Shown one piece after another: positions 47,238-57,845 of a stretch of DNA of 64,000 bases; the stretch's first letter is position 1, and every line of letters begins with the position of its first letter. The notes beneath the pieces were generated by a model. It was not told the origin of the DNA. It did no database searches and was given only the letters and a program-made list of their open reading frames with translations. Origin of the DNA: Propionispira raffinosivorans DSM 20765 (lineage in GTDB: Bacteria > Bacillota > Negativicutes > Selenomonadales > Selenomonadaceae); assembly GCF_000381065.1 (NCBI RefSeq), contig NZ_KB905840.1:186001-250000 (forward strand). Reading direction: 5' to 3'. The position numbers and the translations under genes are program-made.

Positions 47238-48518
47238 ATGGGTGTTATCAATTTCATAATCAATAATATTTTGACGCAGGCTGGCATTACGTTGGCACTG
47301 ATAGCCTTGCTTGGACTCGTATTGCAGAGAAAATCAATCGGGCAGACAATCGCCGGTACATTTAAAACTTTACTGGGATTTCAGGTGTTGTCCGCAGGTT
47401 CAGCGATCATCGTTGCTAGTTTGATCTATTTTGGTAAGATATTTACACAAGGATTCCATATGCAGGGAATTATTCCTTCCATTGAAGCAATTAATGGACA
47501 GGCCATGAATGAACTTGGTTTGGGCAGTCCCATTGCATTTACGTTTCTAGCTATTTTTGTTGCCAATATTATTATTGCCCGTTTCACAAAATGGAAATAT
47601 GTATTTTTAACGGGGCAGGCTATTTTATGGATGGCTACGATGTGTACGATATTTGGGTATTTTGCTGGACTTAGAGGTTTTATGCTGGTTGCTGTTGGTG
47701 GGGTTGTTGGTGGGATCTTTGCTGTAGCAATGCCTGCAATGGCACAGCCAATTGTTCGTAAGATTACTGGTAATAATGATATTGCCTTAGGTCATTTTTG
47801 CACCATTGGATATTTATTTGAAGCGGGTGTTGCTAAACTTGTTGGTAACCCTGAACAATCTGTAGAAAAGATTAACCTTCCGAAGGCTTTTGAATTTTTA
47901 CAGGATACGTATTTGTCTGTTATGGTCATTATGGTTCCGCTTTATATAATTACAGCTTTTTTTGCTGGTGAGGAATTTTGTCAACCGATTGCAGGAAATA
48001 CAAATTATTTGGTACATTCATTTTTACAGGCCATTCAATTTGTTGTAGGTGTTTATGTATTACTCGCGGGTGTTCGTTTAATCTTAGGAGAAATCGTTCC
48101 GGCTTTTCGCGGCATTGCTATGAAAATTGTTCCAGATGCTATTCCAGCACTGGATTGTCCGGTACTTTTCCCCTTCTCTCCGAATGCTGTTATCGTGGGG
48201 TTTGTGACGACAACAATCGGTACGGTCATTGCAATGTTCGTTTTGCCAAGTTTTGGTTTGGCGATGATCTTGCCGGGGATGCTCACGAACTTTTTTGCCG
48301 GCGGTACCGCGGGAATTTTCGGCAATGCTGTTGGCGGTAAACGAGGTGCGATTATCGGCGGGATTGCCCACGGTTTCTTTATTACCCTGCTGCCAGCCTT
48401 GCTTGTGACAATTTTTAATACATTAGGTTTTGTTAATGCGACGGCAACGGATGTTGATACGATTTCGGCAGCGTTATTGTATGCATGGATTATAATGCCG
48501 CTTATGACTTTGCTGTAA
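47238..48518 (+). CDS. PTS ascorbate-type EIIC permease (UlaA/SgaT family)
   Basis: A 426-residue membrane permease. The N-terminal LTQAGITLALIALLGLVLQR, the AINGQAMNELGLGS segment and the AKLVGNPEQSVEKINLP loop are typical of UlaA. The ascorbate enzymes UlaD, UlaE, UlaF and UlaG are absent from the operon, which instead has a class II aldolase, so the substrate is probably not ascorbate. An AGAGGGGG site precedes the ATG. Confidence 0.92.
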   Translation: MGVINFIINNILTQAGITLALIALLGLVLQRKSIGQTIAGTFKTLLGFQVLSAGSAIIVASLIYFGKIFTQGFHMQGIIPSIEAINGQAMNELGLGSPIAFTFLAIFVANIIIARFTKWKYVFLTGQAILWMATMCTIFGYFAGLRGFMLVAVGGVVGGIFAVAMPAMAQPIVRKITGNNDIALGHFCTIGYLFEAGVAKLVGNPEQSVEKINLPKAFEFLQDTYLSVMVIMVPLYIITAFFAGEEFCQPIAGNTNYLVHSFLQAIQFVVGVYVLLAGVRLILGEIVPAFRGIAMKIVPDAIPALDCPVLFPFSPNAVIVGFVTTTIGTVIAMFVLPSFGLAMILPGMLTNFFAGGTAGIFGNAVGGKRGAIIGGIAHGFFITLLPALLVTIFNTLGFVNATATDVDTISAALLYAWIIMPLMTLL

Positions 48519-51932: not shown

Positions 51933-51950
51933 TTGAGAGGAGAACTTATA

Positions 51951-54185
51951 TTGAATAGATTGTCAAAACATAAAAAAAAAGTTTTATATGCATTAGTGGG
52001 CAGCAGCTTAGTATTGCAAACACCTGCAGTTGTATATGCAGATGAAACGGAGACTGCGGCTGAAACTGTGCAGCAAAGCAGCGACAGCAAAGAAATTAGG
52101 CAGAAAAAAGCATCGGAAAATGAATTTTCCTTTGAGGGAATCACTGTTTTTGCAAAACGTGAAGAAAAGAAAAAAGATGCGGAAGATACATATGTGGGCG
52201 GGAAACTTTCGAAAAAAGCCAATGTCGGAATTTTAGGTAGTGCCGATATTTTTTCGATTCCATTTAATATTACGAGCTATACAGCCCAAGAAATTGAATC
52301 GAAACAAGCAAGAACGCTTTCGGATATTTTGCTTGACGATTCATCCGTACGATTTACGACATCGAGTGGACATATGAATGAAAACTATACCATTCGTGGA
52401 TTTGATGTTACAGCAGATGACCTGAGTTTGAATGGTCTATATGGTCTTGCTCCATCGGGCCATGTGCCAACGGAATTTATCGATCGAGTCGAAGTTTTAA
52501 AAGGGCCGAGTGCACTTTTAAATGGTACGCCGCCAGGGGGATCGGTGGGCGGTACAGTAAATATTGTTACGAAAAAAGCCGGGGCAGAGTCTGTTACGCG
52601 TCTTACGACGGATTATGCATCAGGTTCACAGATGGGGCTGCATTTGGATCTGGGGCGACGTTTTGGAAAAGTAAAAGAATGGGGGATTCGTCTAAACGCT
52701 GCAACGCGCGATGGGCAAACTGGTGTTGACGGGCAAAAGAAAGAGCGGGCGTTTGGCTCAGTTAATGTCGATTATCAAGGGCAAAATTGGCGAATGTATC
52801 TCGATGCATTTGATAATGAAGAAAAATTCAAAAATGGTTCTTCGATGATGGTGAATTTCAAAAATTCTGTTACAGCAATTCCCGATGCACCGGAGGGGTC
52901 GGTTAATGCTTTCAAAGGTGCCAACGCAAGTCTCGAAAATAAAGGTGCAATGCTGCGCGGTGAATATGATCTTAGTAAGAATTTGACAGCATATGCTGGT
53001 ATTGGCTACCTTAAAAATACATATGAAGGTTTTATAAACTCAACACATGCTAGAAGCGTTGATTCAGATGGTAATTATACTGGCTATACTACATATATCA
53101 ACGGATATTCGAATAATGTATCAGCTGAAGCTGGTCTGCGCCAGAGCTTTAAAACCGGAATGGTAAATCATAAAATGGTTCTGAGTGCTACCCGCCTAGA
53201 GATAGAGAGCGGGTCGGCTTACACCGAAAGTGCACGCTATGCGTCCAATATCTATCATCCGGTTATCCCACTGCTTGCTGCAGTTGCATCAAATGCACCC
53301 AAAACGGCAGAAAGTACCCTGAACAGTATTGCTTTTGCGGATACTTTGTCTTTTGGCGGAGATAAATACAATCTGACATTAGGTGTACGCAACCAGATGA
53401 TTGAAAGTAAAAATTACAATCGTTCCACAGGAGCAATGACAGCTTCTTACAATAAAAATGCCCTAACTCCGGCGATTGCATTTGTTTTTAAACCATGGGA
53501 TAAACCAGTTTCTTTTTATGCAAATTATATCGAAGGTTTAAGCAAAGGCAGTACGGTTACCGATACGACGGCAGCGAATTATGGTGATGTATTTGCACCA
53601 TTTAAAACAAAACAAGCAGAAGTTGGCGTGAAGTGGGAAAATGGAACATTTGCTAATACTTTGAGCTTTTTCCAAATTAATAAACCAAGTCTTTTGAAAG
53701 ACAGTTTAAGCAATACCTATAATGAATCTGGAAAACAGCAAAATCGTGGGATTGAATGGAGTGCTTTTGGCAAACTAAATAACGAAGTGTCCATTTTAGG
53801 TGGTATCACCTATATGCGTGGAGTGCAAACTCATACGCAAAGTGGAACCAATGATGGAAAAACAGCGTATGGAGTTCCGGCTTGGCAAGCAAATGTTAGT
53901 TTCGAATATGCCGTACCACATGTGCAAGGTTTGAGTTTTGATACACGCCTGGTTTATACAGGATCGCAGTATACAAACAATAATAATACAGCGAAAATTC
54001 CTTCCTGGATGCGATTCGATGCCGGGATGCAGTATAAAACATCACTGCAGGGAAATCCGACTACGCTGCGCTTTAGCGTGGAAAATCTAACAAATAAAAA
54101 TTATTGGTCAGGCTTGTTTAGAGAAGATTATTTGACGATAGGCAATGGACGTACATATAAGTTATCGATGTCAATTGATTTGTAA
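51951..54185 (+). CDS. TonB-dependent siderophore receptor
   Basis: A 744-residue outer-membrane receptor that imports ferric siderophores with energy from TonB. A signal peptide occupies residues 1-30 (cleavage after VVYA), a TonB-box-like ITVFA lies near 64-68, then a plug domain with QARTLSDILLDDSSVRF, YTIRGFDV and RVEVLKGPSALLNG, and a beta-barrel that ends in TYKLSMSIDL with the typical aromatic/hydrophobic pattern. The start is TTG at 51951 after GAGAGGAG. It proves an outer membrane in this otherwise Firmicute-like organism. Confidence 0.95.
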   Translation: MNRLSKHKKKVLYALVGSSLVLQTPAVVYADETETAAETVQQSSDSKEIRQKKASENEFSFEGITVFAKREEKKKDAEDTYVGGKLSKKANVGILGSADIFSIPFNITSYTAQEIESKQARTLSDILLDDSSVRFTTSSGHMNENYTIRGFDVTADDLSLNGLYGLAPSGHVPTEFIDRVEVLKGPSALLNGTPPGGSVGGTVNIVTKKAGAESVTRLTTDYASGSQMGLHLDLGRRFGKVKEWGIRLNAATRDGQTGVDGQKKERAFGSVNVDYQGQNWRMYLDAFDNEEKFKNGSSMMVNFKNSVTAIPDAPEGSVNAFKGANASLENKGAMLRGEYDLSKNLTAYAGIGYLKNTYEGFINSTHARSVDSDGNYTGYTTYINGYSNNVSAEAGLRQSFKTGMVNHKMVLSATRLEIESGSAYTESARYASNIYHPVIPLLAAVASNAPKTAESTLNSIAFADTLSFGGDKYNLTLGVRNQMIESKNYNRSTGAMTASYNKNALTPAIAFVFKPWDKPVSFYANYIEGLSKGSTVTDTTAANYGDVFAPFKTKQAEVGVKWENGTFANTLSFFQINKPSLLKDSLSNTYNESGKQQNRGIEWSAFGKLNNEVSILGGITYMRGVQTHTQSGTNDGKTAYGVPAWQANVSFEYAVPHVQGLSFDTRLVYTGSQYTNNNNTAKIPSWMRFDAGMQYKTSLQGNPTTLRFSVENLTNKNYWSGLFREDYLTIGNGRTYKLSMSIDL

Positions 54186-54194
54186 GGTGGCTTT

Positions 54195-54524
54195 ATGCAG
54201 ATAAAAAGAATAAAGACAGAATGGGTCTGTGTGGAAGAGCTTCTCTTTCACACAAGCCCTGTACTTGTGATGTTTATGCGGTTTTTAGCTGCAATAGCAG
54301 GTGGTATAAGTTTGACGTATTTTATGGAAAAGATCTTGTCACTTGCCAATCTATTCGGAGCCTTGGAGACGATTTTTCTTTGCGAGTGGCTTGCCCCCAT
54401 TTTTTATGTACTCGGGTCATGGTATGCATTTTCGATTGTAAACGTGGCGTTGGTATGGAGGAATTTTTTATTCGTTACGCTCGTCGGCAGATTGATTGTC
54501 GGTGGATTTTATTTGTTTCAGTGA
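54195..54524 (+). CDS. Small membrane protein of the iron-uptake locus
   Basis: A 109-residue protein with about three hydrophobic segments (near 24-42, 55-75 and 80-105), starting nine bases after the receptor stop with an AAGGTGG site. I do not recognise the family. Its position between a TonB-dependent receptor and a PepSY protein suggests an accessory role in siderophore handling. Confidence 0.75.
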   Translation: MQIKRIKTEWVCVEELLFHTSPVLVMFMRFLAAIAGGISLTYFMEKILSLANLFGALETIFLCEWLAPIFYVLGSWYAFSIVNVALVWRNFLFVTLVGRLIVGGFYLFQ

Positions 54525-54541
54525 AGGAGGTTATCGAGACG

Positions 54542-56032
54542 ATGCGTGATTTTCACACGTGGGGTGGTCTTTTTTTTGGTTGGCTGTTGTTTATCGTATT
54601 TTTTACGGGAACATTGTCTGTTTTTGCACCTGAAATTACCTATTGGATGACGCCCGAAGCACGCGTGGCGGCAGTTAATCATGGACAGGCTCTGCAAGCA
54701 GCTGAAAAAGCCTTACAGGAAAATGCCCCTGATGCAGATATGTGGTTTGTGATTTTGCCGCAAGGACGGACAAAATCACTGAAAATTTCCTGGCAAAAGA
54801 ATGGACAGAAATTTGAGCGGTACGTACATCCCAAAACAGGTGAAACGTTAAACGTTCGCCAAACGAAAGGGGGCGAATTCTTCGCAGAATTTCATTACCA
54901 GTTGCACCATGAGCCACTTGGAATCTGGATTGTTAGCATCGCTGGTGGGATGATGGTCATGGCGATTTTTTCAGGTATTGCAATTCGAAAAAAGGTGATC
55001 TTTGATTTTTTTTCTTTTCGTTGGCGAAAGACTTTTTTTAGTATTCATACAATGAGTGGAGTACTGACGTTGCCATTTGTCGTGATCATTACCTATACGG
55101 GGCTTGTTATGACCTTTACAGAAGTGATGCCTGTTGCGCTGCATACGTTTTATAAAAATGAAGGTGGTTTTTGGACGGAATTTCTACAAAGTGTGGAGCG
55201 ACCGAAAAGTCATGTATGGGCGAAATTATATCCACTAGCAGAACTTTTACCAGTGGCGGAACAAGAACTAGGTGAAGGGCAGTTGGCATTTGTTCAGATC
55301 AAGCAGCCAAATACAGAAAATGCAGTTATTCATTTTATGCGGCGTGTAGATGATCGGATGCTGGCCATTACAGACCGTGCTAGTTTTGATGGTGTAACGG
55401 GGCAATGGCTTATTACAAAAAATACATGGGATACGCAGGCTACAATTGTTCGGTCGATGGTTGGACTTCATATCGCAAAGTTTGGCGGCTATCCAATGGC
55501 TTGGGGATATTTTTTATTTGGACTGATTAGCAGCGGTATGATTGCTACTGGCTTGGTTTTTTTCACAATAAAGCGCCGATTACTATATGAAAGAGCAAGC
55601 GCTGGAACACAAAATTTTTTCAAAAAAGTTGAGTCTTTTAATATTGCGGTAGTTTGTGGTTGTATCGTAGCTGTCAGTGCCTATTTTTGGGCAAATCGAC
55701 TATTGCCACTATCACTGAATGGACGCGAAGATATGGAAGTGGGGATTTTTTTTCTTGCTTGGGGAATCATGGTGTTTCATGCTTTTTGGCGATCGGTTAA
55801 AGTGGCGTGGGTCGAGCAATTAAAAATTAGTGCCACTTTATTTTTTGTATTGCCATTTTTTAGTGTCTGGAAAACTTCGGAAAAATTTTGGTACCTACTT
55901 TCTACAGGAGAATGGATGAGCATCGCGGTAGAACTGGTTTTTTTCTTGGCGGCGATTGTTTTATGGGCAGCAGCACATAAATTAAATAAACAATGGAAAT
56001 TGAATCATAAAAATACGTTTCTTTCCGAATAA
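54542..56032 (+). CDS. PepSY-associated membrane protein (PiuB-like)
   Basis: A 496-residue inner-membrane protein. The opening DFHTWGGLFFGWLLFIVFFTGTL is the classic PepSY-TM first helix; a periplasmic PepSY-like domain follows, then three further central and several C-terminal helices. Such proteins accompany siderophore receptors and are thought to reduce or release iron from siderophores. GTGAAGGAGG provides the ribosome site for the ATG at 54542; a longer frame from 54221 overlaps the small membrane gene and is not used. Confidence 0.88.
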   Translation: MRDFHTWGGLFFGWLLFIVFFTGTLSVFAPEITYWMTPEARVAAVNHGQALQAAEKALQENAPDADMWFVILPQGRTKSLKISWQKNGQKFERYVHPKTGETLNVRQTKGGEFFAEFHYQLHHEPLGIWIVSIAGGMMVMAIFSGIAIRKKVIFDFFSFRWRKTFFSIHTMSGVLTLPFVVIITYTGLVMTFTEVMPVALHTFYKNEGGFWTEFLQSVERPKSHVWAKLYPLAELLPVAEQELGEGQLAFVQIKQPNTENAVIHFMRRVDDRMLAITDRASFDGVTGQWLITKNTWDTQATIVRSMVGLHIAKFGGYPMAWGYFLFGLISSGMIATGLVFFTIKRRLLYERASAGTQNFFKKVESFNIAVVCGCIVAVSAYFWANRLLPLSLNGREDMEVGIFFLAWGIMVFHAFWRSVKVAWVEQLKISATLFFVLPFFSVWKTSEKFWYLLSTGEWMSIAVELVFFLAAIVLWAAAHKLNKQWKLNHKNTFLSE

Positions 56033-56096: not shown

Positions 56097-56711
56097 TCAA
56101 CAAATTGTACTTTTGTTTTTTCCCGACTTTTTGGAGTTGTACATCGCATTATCACTACGCGTTAGAATGGAATCTACGGTGTCACCTTTTTTTATTTTTG
56201 TTATTCCCCAGCTTAATGTAATGTCTTGAAAGTGATTATTTATTTGGATGTTTGTTAAACTTAGACGGATTTTATTTTCAATTATTTTTGCCTGTTCCGT
56301 GTTAAGATCTTCTAATATAATTAAAAACTCTTCTCCACCTAAACGTCCCGCAAAACTGTTTTTTGGTATGGCTTCTTTGATTGTTTTGGAAACGGTAATT
56401 AAAACCTGATCACCGCTCGTGTGCCCATAGGTGTCATTCACTTTTTTGAAATAGTCAATATCGCCAAACATAATACAGGTGTCATAAATGGTTGGGGCAA
56501 TCGTCGTGATGAAATAATTTAATTTATCTTGAATAAATTTGCGAGAAAATAAACCTGTTAAATAATCCGTATTTAACATTTGTGAAAATTTTTTATTCAC
56601 ACAGTTTAATTCATAATTTTTTTGTTCTAATTCTCGATTGCAATTCGCTAATTCATTATTTAATTTTGAAATGATGGCGTAGATGTGTTCGGCTTTCTTA
56701 GAATAATGCAC
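56097..56711 (-). CDS. GGDEF diguanylate cyclase
   Basis: A 204-residue protein that makes cyclic di-GMP. A coiled-coil of about 45 residues (NELANCNRELEQKNYELNCV) leads into a GGDEF domain with DYLTGLFSRKF, GDIDYFKKVNDTYGH and the active-site GGEEF (125-129). The RxxD inhibitory site that should lie at 116-119 is PKNS, so product inhibition is probably absent. It has no sensor domain of its own. It is encoded 30 bases downstream of a B12-binding protein, which probably supplies the signal. GGAGGC lies before the ATG. Confidence 0.93.
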   Translation of the reverse strand: MHYSKKAEHIYAIISKLNNELANCNRELEQKNYELNCVNKKFSQMLNTDYLTGLFSRKFIQDKLNYFITTIAPTIYDTCIMFGDIDYFKKVNDTYGHTSGDQVLITVSKTIKEAIPKNSFAGRLGGEEFLIILEDLNTEQAKIIENKIRLSLTNIQINNHFQDITLSWGITKIKKGDTVDSILTRSDNAMYNSKKSGKNKSTIC

Positions 56712-56741
56712 AGAGCAGCCTCCTTAGATAATCTTATCTGG

Positions 56742-57845
56742 TTATAATACCACTGCTTTTTCATTCGTAGCAGTGTTCTTTTTTAGGTTACACCAGTGAT
56801 TATTGGCTAGATTTAAAAATTCTTCGGCATTTCTTGCAAGATTGTCAGCTTTTAATTTGATCCAAATATCAGGAGCGTAATTAAATATATTTCCGCCAAC
56901 AATGACTAATGTACTGGGTGGCGTGCGTTTCTTTATAGCCTGAATGATCTCAGATGCATTCGCTAGATTATAGGGCATTGAAATACTGAGTCCGATTATA
57001 TCAGGTTTTAAACGATCTATTTCTTTTAATAATAAATTTGTTTCCGTATTACTGCCTAAATAATGCACGTCCCAACTATCCGCTTCTAATAAATCGGCGG
57101 ACATTCTCGCACCGATTTCATGATATTCATTAAAAACTGTAGCTAAAATAGCGGTTCCTTTTTTGTGATCACCCAATACATATTGGCTGTATAATGCTGT
57201 CATGATATTTATAACGATTGCAGACGCCAAATGCTCTTGGGCAACACTGATTTTTTGCGTTTCCCACAAATACCCAATATCGTATAAGCAAGCCTGAATT
57301 ACGGTGAGATAAAAATCTTTTAACGTCTCTTTATCATGTACATATTTTTCGGTTAAATCTAAGGCAGTTGTTTTTTCTCCTGCTAAAATTATTTGTAAAA
57401 ACTGCTCTTTTACCAGATTATTACTGGATAATAATTGATTTTTCAATAAATTTACATTAGATTCAGCAATTTTTATAAAATTTTTATGGTTTTTTATGAG
57501 TGAATCATATACATTTATCAATTCGGTATTATCATTTTTGGAAATGTTTTTCTGAATCGCATATTTCCAAGCTTTAAATTCACATAGGATCGTATTGTAG
57601 TTTTTTCCCGTTCTATACCACCAAATAACTAAGTAGGTCAGAAGGTTATAATCTGCATATTGAAAAATATTTGACATATAGTTAAAATGTATTTCTTGGT
57701 ATAGATAATTCGTAGTTTGTTTACGGTTTAAATATTGTATAGCATCAGTAAGTAGAAATTGTTTTTTTTCTTTAAACAACCATAAGCAATCTAAAGAAAT
57801 TGGTTTTAAATGAAATAAAAATTTTTTATATTGGCTTGAAAACAT
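56742..57845 (-). CDS. CarH-like cobalamin-binding sensor protein
   Basis: A 367-residue protein with an N-terminal helical region of unknown function (1-130) and a C-terminal cap plus B12-binding domain. The cap shows Trp194 and Glu204-His205 (W-x9-EH), the pattern that senses adenosylcobalamin in CarH-type light receptors; the lower ligand is His242 in EYHEIGARM, followed by VHYLGSNT and LSISMP. No MerR DNA-binding domain is present. Of two possible starts the ATG at 57845 is nine bases from GGGGAG, while that at 57854 touches it. It is co-transcribed with the diguanylate cyclase gene. Confidence 0.85.
   Translation of the reverse strand: MFSSQYKKFLFHLKPISLDCLWLFKEKKQFLLTDAIQYLNRKQTTNYLYQEIHFNYMSNIFQYADYNLLTYLVIWWYRTGKNYNTILCEFKAWKYAIQKNISKNDNTELINVYDSLIKNHKNFIKIAESNVNLLKNQLLSSNNLVKEQFLQIILAGEKTTALDLTEKYVHDKETLKDFYLTVIQACLYDIGYLWETQKISVAQEHLASAIVINIMTALYSQYVLGDHKKGTAILATVFNEYHEIGARMSADLLEADSWDVHYLGSNTETNLLLKEIDRLKPDIIGLSISMPYNLANASEIIQAIKKRTPPSTLVIVGGNIFNYAPDIWIKLKADNLARNAEEFLNLANNHWCNLKKNTATNEKAVVL

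Follow-up and report, generated by a model that had tools for sequence, protein, structure and literature searches.

A predicted B12-globin sensor paired with a diguanylate cyclase in Propionispira raffinosivorans, and a helix common to the partners of such sensors

The stretch of Propionispira raffinosivorans DSM 20765 DNA analysed here (64 000 nucleotides, hereafter the window) contains on its minus strand two neighbouring genes, one for a predicted B12-binding protein of 367 aa with an N-terminal globin fold (56742..57845) and one for a diguanylate cyclase of 204 aa with a GTG start (56097..56711). On balance we favour the reading that the pair forms a two-gene input module for cyclic di-GMP, in which the B12 state of the sensor would control the cyclase in trans, probably through direct contact between the two proteins. 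This reading draws on the near-invariant B12 pocket of the sensor, on the recurrence of the pairing in many phyla, and on a short helix that the cyclase has in common with the partners of other B12-globin sensors.

An earlier note on this DNA had described a CarH-like B12 sensor lacking a DNA-binding domain, 30 bases away from a GGDEF protein lacking both a sensor domain and an I-site, and each part of this description stands. Both open reading frames lie where that note had placed them, and its numbering of W194, E204-H205 and H242 is correct with the sensor start at 57845, which we adopted; this start is 9 bases after an alternative ATG (57854) and is better spaced from the GGGGAG sequence. 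The measured intergenic stretch (56712..56741, minus strand) is 30 bases long and includes an AAGGAGG ribosome-binding site; no terminator-like site was seen in the region of the gene pair, and no cobalamin riboswitch was matched in Rfam at the gathering threshold between positions 48000 and 64000 of the window. The pair is also present in Propionispira arboris DSM 2179, and comparison of the two species gives dN/dS values of about 0.21 (sensor) and about 0.07 (cyclase); thus both genes are under purifying selection. Positions 51933-56032 of the window encode a TonB-dependent receptor and then a PepSY-TM protein (PepSY was identified on the P. arboris copy), which are likely a metal or siderophore uptake set.

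Pfam recognizes two domains in the sensor, a B12-binding_2 cap at residues 146-218 (57192..57410, minus strand; E 1.8e-13) and a Rossmann-type B12-binding domain at residues 231-327 (56865..57155, minus strand; E 3.2e-19), and neither a DNA-binding domain by Pfam nor a helix-turn-helix was found. The cap carries G191-x-x-W194 and E204-H205 of the upper-ligand pocket, and the Rossmann domain carries the lower-ligand H242 within NEYH. Among 57 aligned homologues, which represent many phyla, G191, W194, E204 and H242 are kept in all 57 sequences and H205 in 56, and the W-x9-EH spacing is that of SasPcob (W-QANRWSVAQ-EH). The full AlphaFold2 model is confident (pLDDT 92.5, pTM 0.90), and residues 140-353 match best the fold of SasPcob (Z 26.8 over 208 residues), followed by those of AbDPcob (Z 25.3), CtMerR (Z 23.3) and CarH (about 20); a profile search concurs, with SasPcob matched at E 1e-39. 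Judged by these features the gene 1 product is a predicted B12-binding protein of CarH-like type, scoring 47.9 bits against the 400-bit cut-off of the CarH family model NCBIfam NF052513. A signature of light-responsive cobalamin domains that includes GxxH, the SignatureFinder signature, has been published (PMC11796333); its GxxW and EH elements are present in the sensor and GxxH is absent, the site reading NEYH, with N at that position in 50 of the 57 homologues. NEYH conforms to E/DxH, the motif given for photocobilins (PMC10979010). The residue following W194 is E, so that the sensor, like CtMerR and SasPcob, cannot form the bis-His light state of TtCarH (PMC11796333). Adenosylcobalamin is likely available in Propionispira, since its genome has genes for a cobalamin adenosyltransferase and for several further B12-binding proteins.

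The N-terminal part of the sensor, about 130 residues that had been called unknown in the earlier note, turns out on structure search to be a globin-fold domain of the phycobiliprotein/photoglobin type (about residues 15-130; 57456..57803, minus strand). Modelled alone, residues 1-140 form seven helices (pLDDT 90.6), and all of the structure matches listed are globin folds, among them smURFP (Z 11.3), allophycocyanins (10-11), the bilin domain of SasPcob (Z 9.7), globin-coupled sensors and RsbR. smURFP is a biliverdin-binding derivative of a phycobiliprotein. The Foldseek E value for the N-terminus is only 0.45, with a probability near 1, and there is only modest reason to place the domain nearer to bilin globins than to other globins. 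The globin fold is visible by structure alone, a sequence-only profile of the N-terminus having found no match in the PDB; the Phycobilisome family of Pfam was touched in two homologues, both under the curated cut-off (E 7.4e-4 and 0.04). A globin placed N-terminally to the B12 unit gives the domains of a photocobilin in reverse order, and both orders are known to exist (PMC10979010).

The Propionispira globin lacks a loop of about 11 residues and is altered in the DNHxNH and HGFSYDYFP stretches, which nearly all homologues keep; the invariant W75 lines up with Trp296 of SasPcob only in a sub-threshold alignment. Neither a PF01126 heme oxygenase nor a HugZ-type PF10615 protein was found in the Propionispira genome or in most of the other sensor carriers checked, PF01126 occurring in only four carrier genomes, all from a single family of aerobe-like Bacillota. 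Propionispira is therefore unlikely to have a bilin chromophore, which its globin has probably lost. At several loci (L163-L164, L167, L169-L170 and L174-L177) the globin and B12 domains are encoded by separate adjoining genes, most of them beside a histidine kinase gene; some of the loci with split globin and B12-only genes are Bacteroidota-like.

Gene 2 has a GGDEF domain at residues 47-200 (56112..56573, minus strand; E 2.8e-38) and nothing else above the Pfam cut-off, including PAS. Its catalytic GG[DE]EF motif is intact (GGEEF), and PKNS stands in place of the I-site RxxD, which is kept in 30 of 37 motif-bearing sequences. The I-site is common in diguanylate cyclases and is not obligatory. 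The GGDEF domain scores 119 bits against partner cyclases from other phyla and 97 bits against the best paralogue in its own genome; by these scores gene 2 seems to belong with the partner cyclases; a GGDEF tree did not settle its placement. Other partner cyclases usually have about 130-150 residues ahead of the GGDEF domain, PAS-like in some, whereas gene 2 begins just before a coil-forming helix, so that the PAS-like region is missing and the helix is kept.

The gene pair is far from peculiar to Propionispira. We surveyed 75 loci with a full-length sensor, in 67 of which a same-strand gene at the +1 position could be counted: 37 of the 67 encode GGDEF proteins, 11 histidine kinases and one an EAL or HD protein, against 3 (GGDEF) and 20 (histidine kinase) of 574 genes at other positions of the sensor loci, an enrichment of GGDEF at +1 with a Fisher probability of 5e-38. 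These loci are not fully independent, and when each 60%-identity cluster is represented once, GGDEF stands at +1 in 25 of 56. A random neighbour would be a GGDEF gene in well under 1% of cases (22 GGDEF matches in the 4.13-Mb genome). Paired loci span Bacillota, Thermodesulfobacteriota and other deltaproteobacterial lineages, Nitrospirota, Spirochaetota, Thermotogota, Planctomycetota and Actinomycetota, and no other cyclase pair has a gap as wide as the 30 bases of Propionispira. Conservation of the pair, which had been put forward as a check, is thus borne out across many phyla. Within the Negativicutes few genomes carry the sensor (7 of 380 genomes of the class at E<=1e-14), and a close homologue occurs in only two of 189 genomes of the family, both of the same genus. 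Outputs within the class vary: Propionispira has GGDEF, one genome has GGDEF-EAL, and another has an HD protein upstream. Several sensor loci carry other outputs or none; at one a SpoIIE-type phosphatase protein follows the sensor (L158:6180-7391). At two further loci (L096:5868-6782 and L097:5783-6679) a Cro/C1-type helix-turn-helix (HTH_3/HTH_19), a DNA-binding domain unlike the MerR type of CarH, is fused to a CarH-like B12 unit. No relative was found in viral contigs.

The 27 residues that precede the GGDEF linker in the partners have the consensus S-x-LNNEL-x-N-x-x-REL-x-KKN-x-EL, and the N-terminal helix of the Propionispira cyclase (residues 13-36, IISKLNNELANCNRELEQKNYELN; 56604..56675, minus strand) matches it as LNNEL-REL-KN-EL. 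With a profile trained without Propionispira this helix scores 35.0 bits. Of the 37 partner cyclases, 35 show the coil at 15 bits or more, as do 7 of the 16 partner kinases and 13 of the 22 partners that are neither cyclase nor kinase. Two of 52 control GGDEF frames also reach this score; both stem from the G472 locus and seem to be its partner gene. Among other genes five of 735 do so, all five at split or broken sensor loci. A search of 398 Bacillota genomes gave 15 matches, 13 of them directly after a sensor gene; seven of these 13 come from genomes that supplied training sequences, which leaves six of eight as independent. It is the scarcity of matches away from sensors that shows the coil to be specific. 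The remaining two are an orphan coil-GGDEF gene and a match that is probably due to chance. The orphan (L250:4748-6970, genome G690) lies after a transposase gene of the IS605 type, and the 13 kb examined contained no gene for a sensor. Ten loci (L112, L114, L116, L119, L126, L130, L134, L145, L148 and L154) have small coil proteins right after the sensor, PAS-like in part, and no catalytic domain was recognized in those scanned.

In the module that we favour, the sensor would bind adenosylcobalamin base-off/His-on through H242, with W194, E204 and H205 surrounding the adenosyl group; once this group is lost or photolysed, the cap and the dimer would be reshaped, and the reshaped sensor would directly contact the N-terminal coil of the cyclase, which, having no sensor of its own, would be altered in dimerization and output. 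Since the pocket residues would report on the adenosyl group, the stimulus in Propionispira could be either the cellular status of adenosylcobalamin or light that acts solely on adenosylcobalamin; the two are nearly even, and we lean slightly to status. The earlier proposal that light or B12 status acts on the cyclase accordingly fares unevenly: GGDEF at +1 and the shared coil speak for coupling in trans, but light is doubtful in this anaerobe.

That the same module is specifically a green-light sensor, in which photolytic cleavage of the Co-C bond would switch the cyclase in the manner of AbDPcob, seems to us rather unlikely. In its favour are the conservation of the residues that would hold the adenosyl group, the fact that the closest relatives with solved structures sense light, and the description of a light-activated cyclase (PMC10979010). 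Against it, the bilin pocket looks lost, no PF01126 or HugZ-type protein was found in Propionispira or most carriers checked, and the E after W194 precludes the bis-His state of TtCarH, a point that loses some force because CtMerR and SasPcob share it (PMC11796333). A further reading, to which we give still less credence, makes the Propionispira sensor a decaying one and the cyclase autonomous, so that the pairing would be the remnant of an acquired module. The loss of globin motifs, PAS-like region and I-site, together with the widest gap, does mean that the coupling could have weakened in Propionispira; the patchy distribution in the family fits such a remnant, and the orphan coil-GGDEF gene of G690 demonstrates that sensors can be missing. 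Against decay stand the low dN/dS of both genes, the complete B12 pocket in a confidently modelled fold, and the retention of the coil by gene 2. We reject a corrinoid methyltransferase subunit of the MtaC/MtbC type, unrelated to the cyclase, as very improbable: the sensor has weak NCBIfam matches to MtbC and MtgC, but all NCBIfam matches are far under the curated cut-offs, no methyltransferase neighbour was seen, and photocobilins match better, with the W and EH motifs present.

More broadly, B12-globin sensors may address unrelated outputs, namely cyclases, histidine kinases and PAS-coil proteins lacking an output domain, through one conserved partner helix across many mostly anaerobic phyla, the signal being adenosylcobalamin status and not light in carriers unable to make biliverdin; we put this forward tentatively, as possible and not yet as probable. 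The family supplies natural cognate pairs of sensor and output, whereas in the literature searched photocobilin control of a separate enzyme is documented only in vitro, with a cyclase that was either split off or non-cognate. The coil is a short candidate coupling helix, open to mutation or swapping, and if it works as proposed, a single type of sensor could be attached to either cyclases or kinases. In carriers that have no known source of biliverdin, sensing of light and of B12 status can be distinguished, and, if the status reading is true, there would be a protein-based B12-status input to cyclic di-GMP and phosphorelay signalling.

AppA/AerR SCHIC-type proteins are B12-fold regulators that work by protein contact. 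Their fold matches that of the sensor at Z about 20, but their partners are different, and AppA is a BLUF/heme protein. CarH and LitR have in common with the sensor the W-x9-EH and ExH motifs, a base-off/His-on lower histidine and the B12 fold; in contrast, the Propionispira sensor has no MerR DNA-binding domain and its neighbour is a cyclase, so that its output is probably not transcription. CtMerR (PDB 8JBS, PMC11796333) resembles the sensor in the fold of its B12 unit, but has a MerR DNA-binding domain and keeps GxxH. The photoglobin family, as cited in two papers, also joins globins to B12-binding domains in proteins linked to signalling (PMC10151467, PMC10979010). The cyclase control that the earlier note set against CarH is not new in principle; regulation of diguanylate cyclases by CarH-type B12 domains, fused or in trans, is already published: adenosylcobalamin photolysis alters the cap and dimer of photocobilins, light activates the fused photocobilin-diguanylate cyclase AbDPcob (PDB 8J2Y) more than 10-fold, and standalone photocobilins such as SasPcob (8J2W/8J2X) change a separate cyclase in vitro (PMC10979010). 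In the literature searched, the original photoglobin paper aside, neither a widespread two-gene form nor a coil common to cyclases and kinases was found, and priority for the operon type and the coil is uncertain. Photocobilins come close to the Propionispira sensor in combining a CarH-type B12 unit with a bilin-type globin and, as we propose for this sensor, control diguanylate cyclases, also in trans in vitro. Unlike in AbDPcob and SasPcob, however, the Propionispira globin is N-terminal and most of its pocket motifs are absent, and the cyclase is encoded by a separate gene that bears a partner-specific coil.
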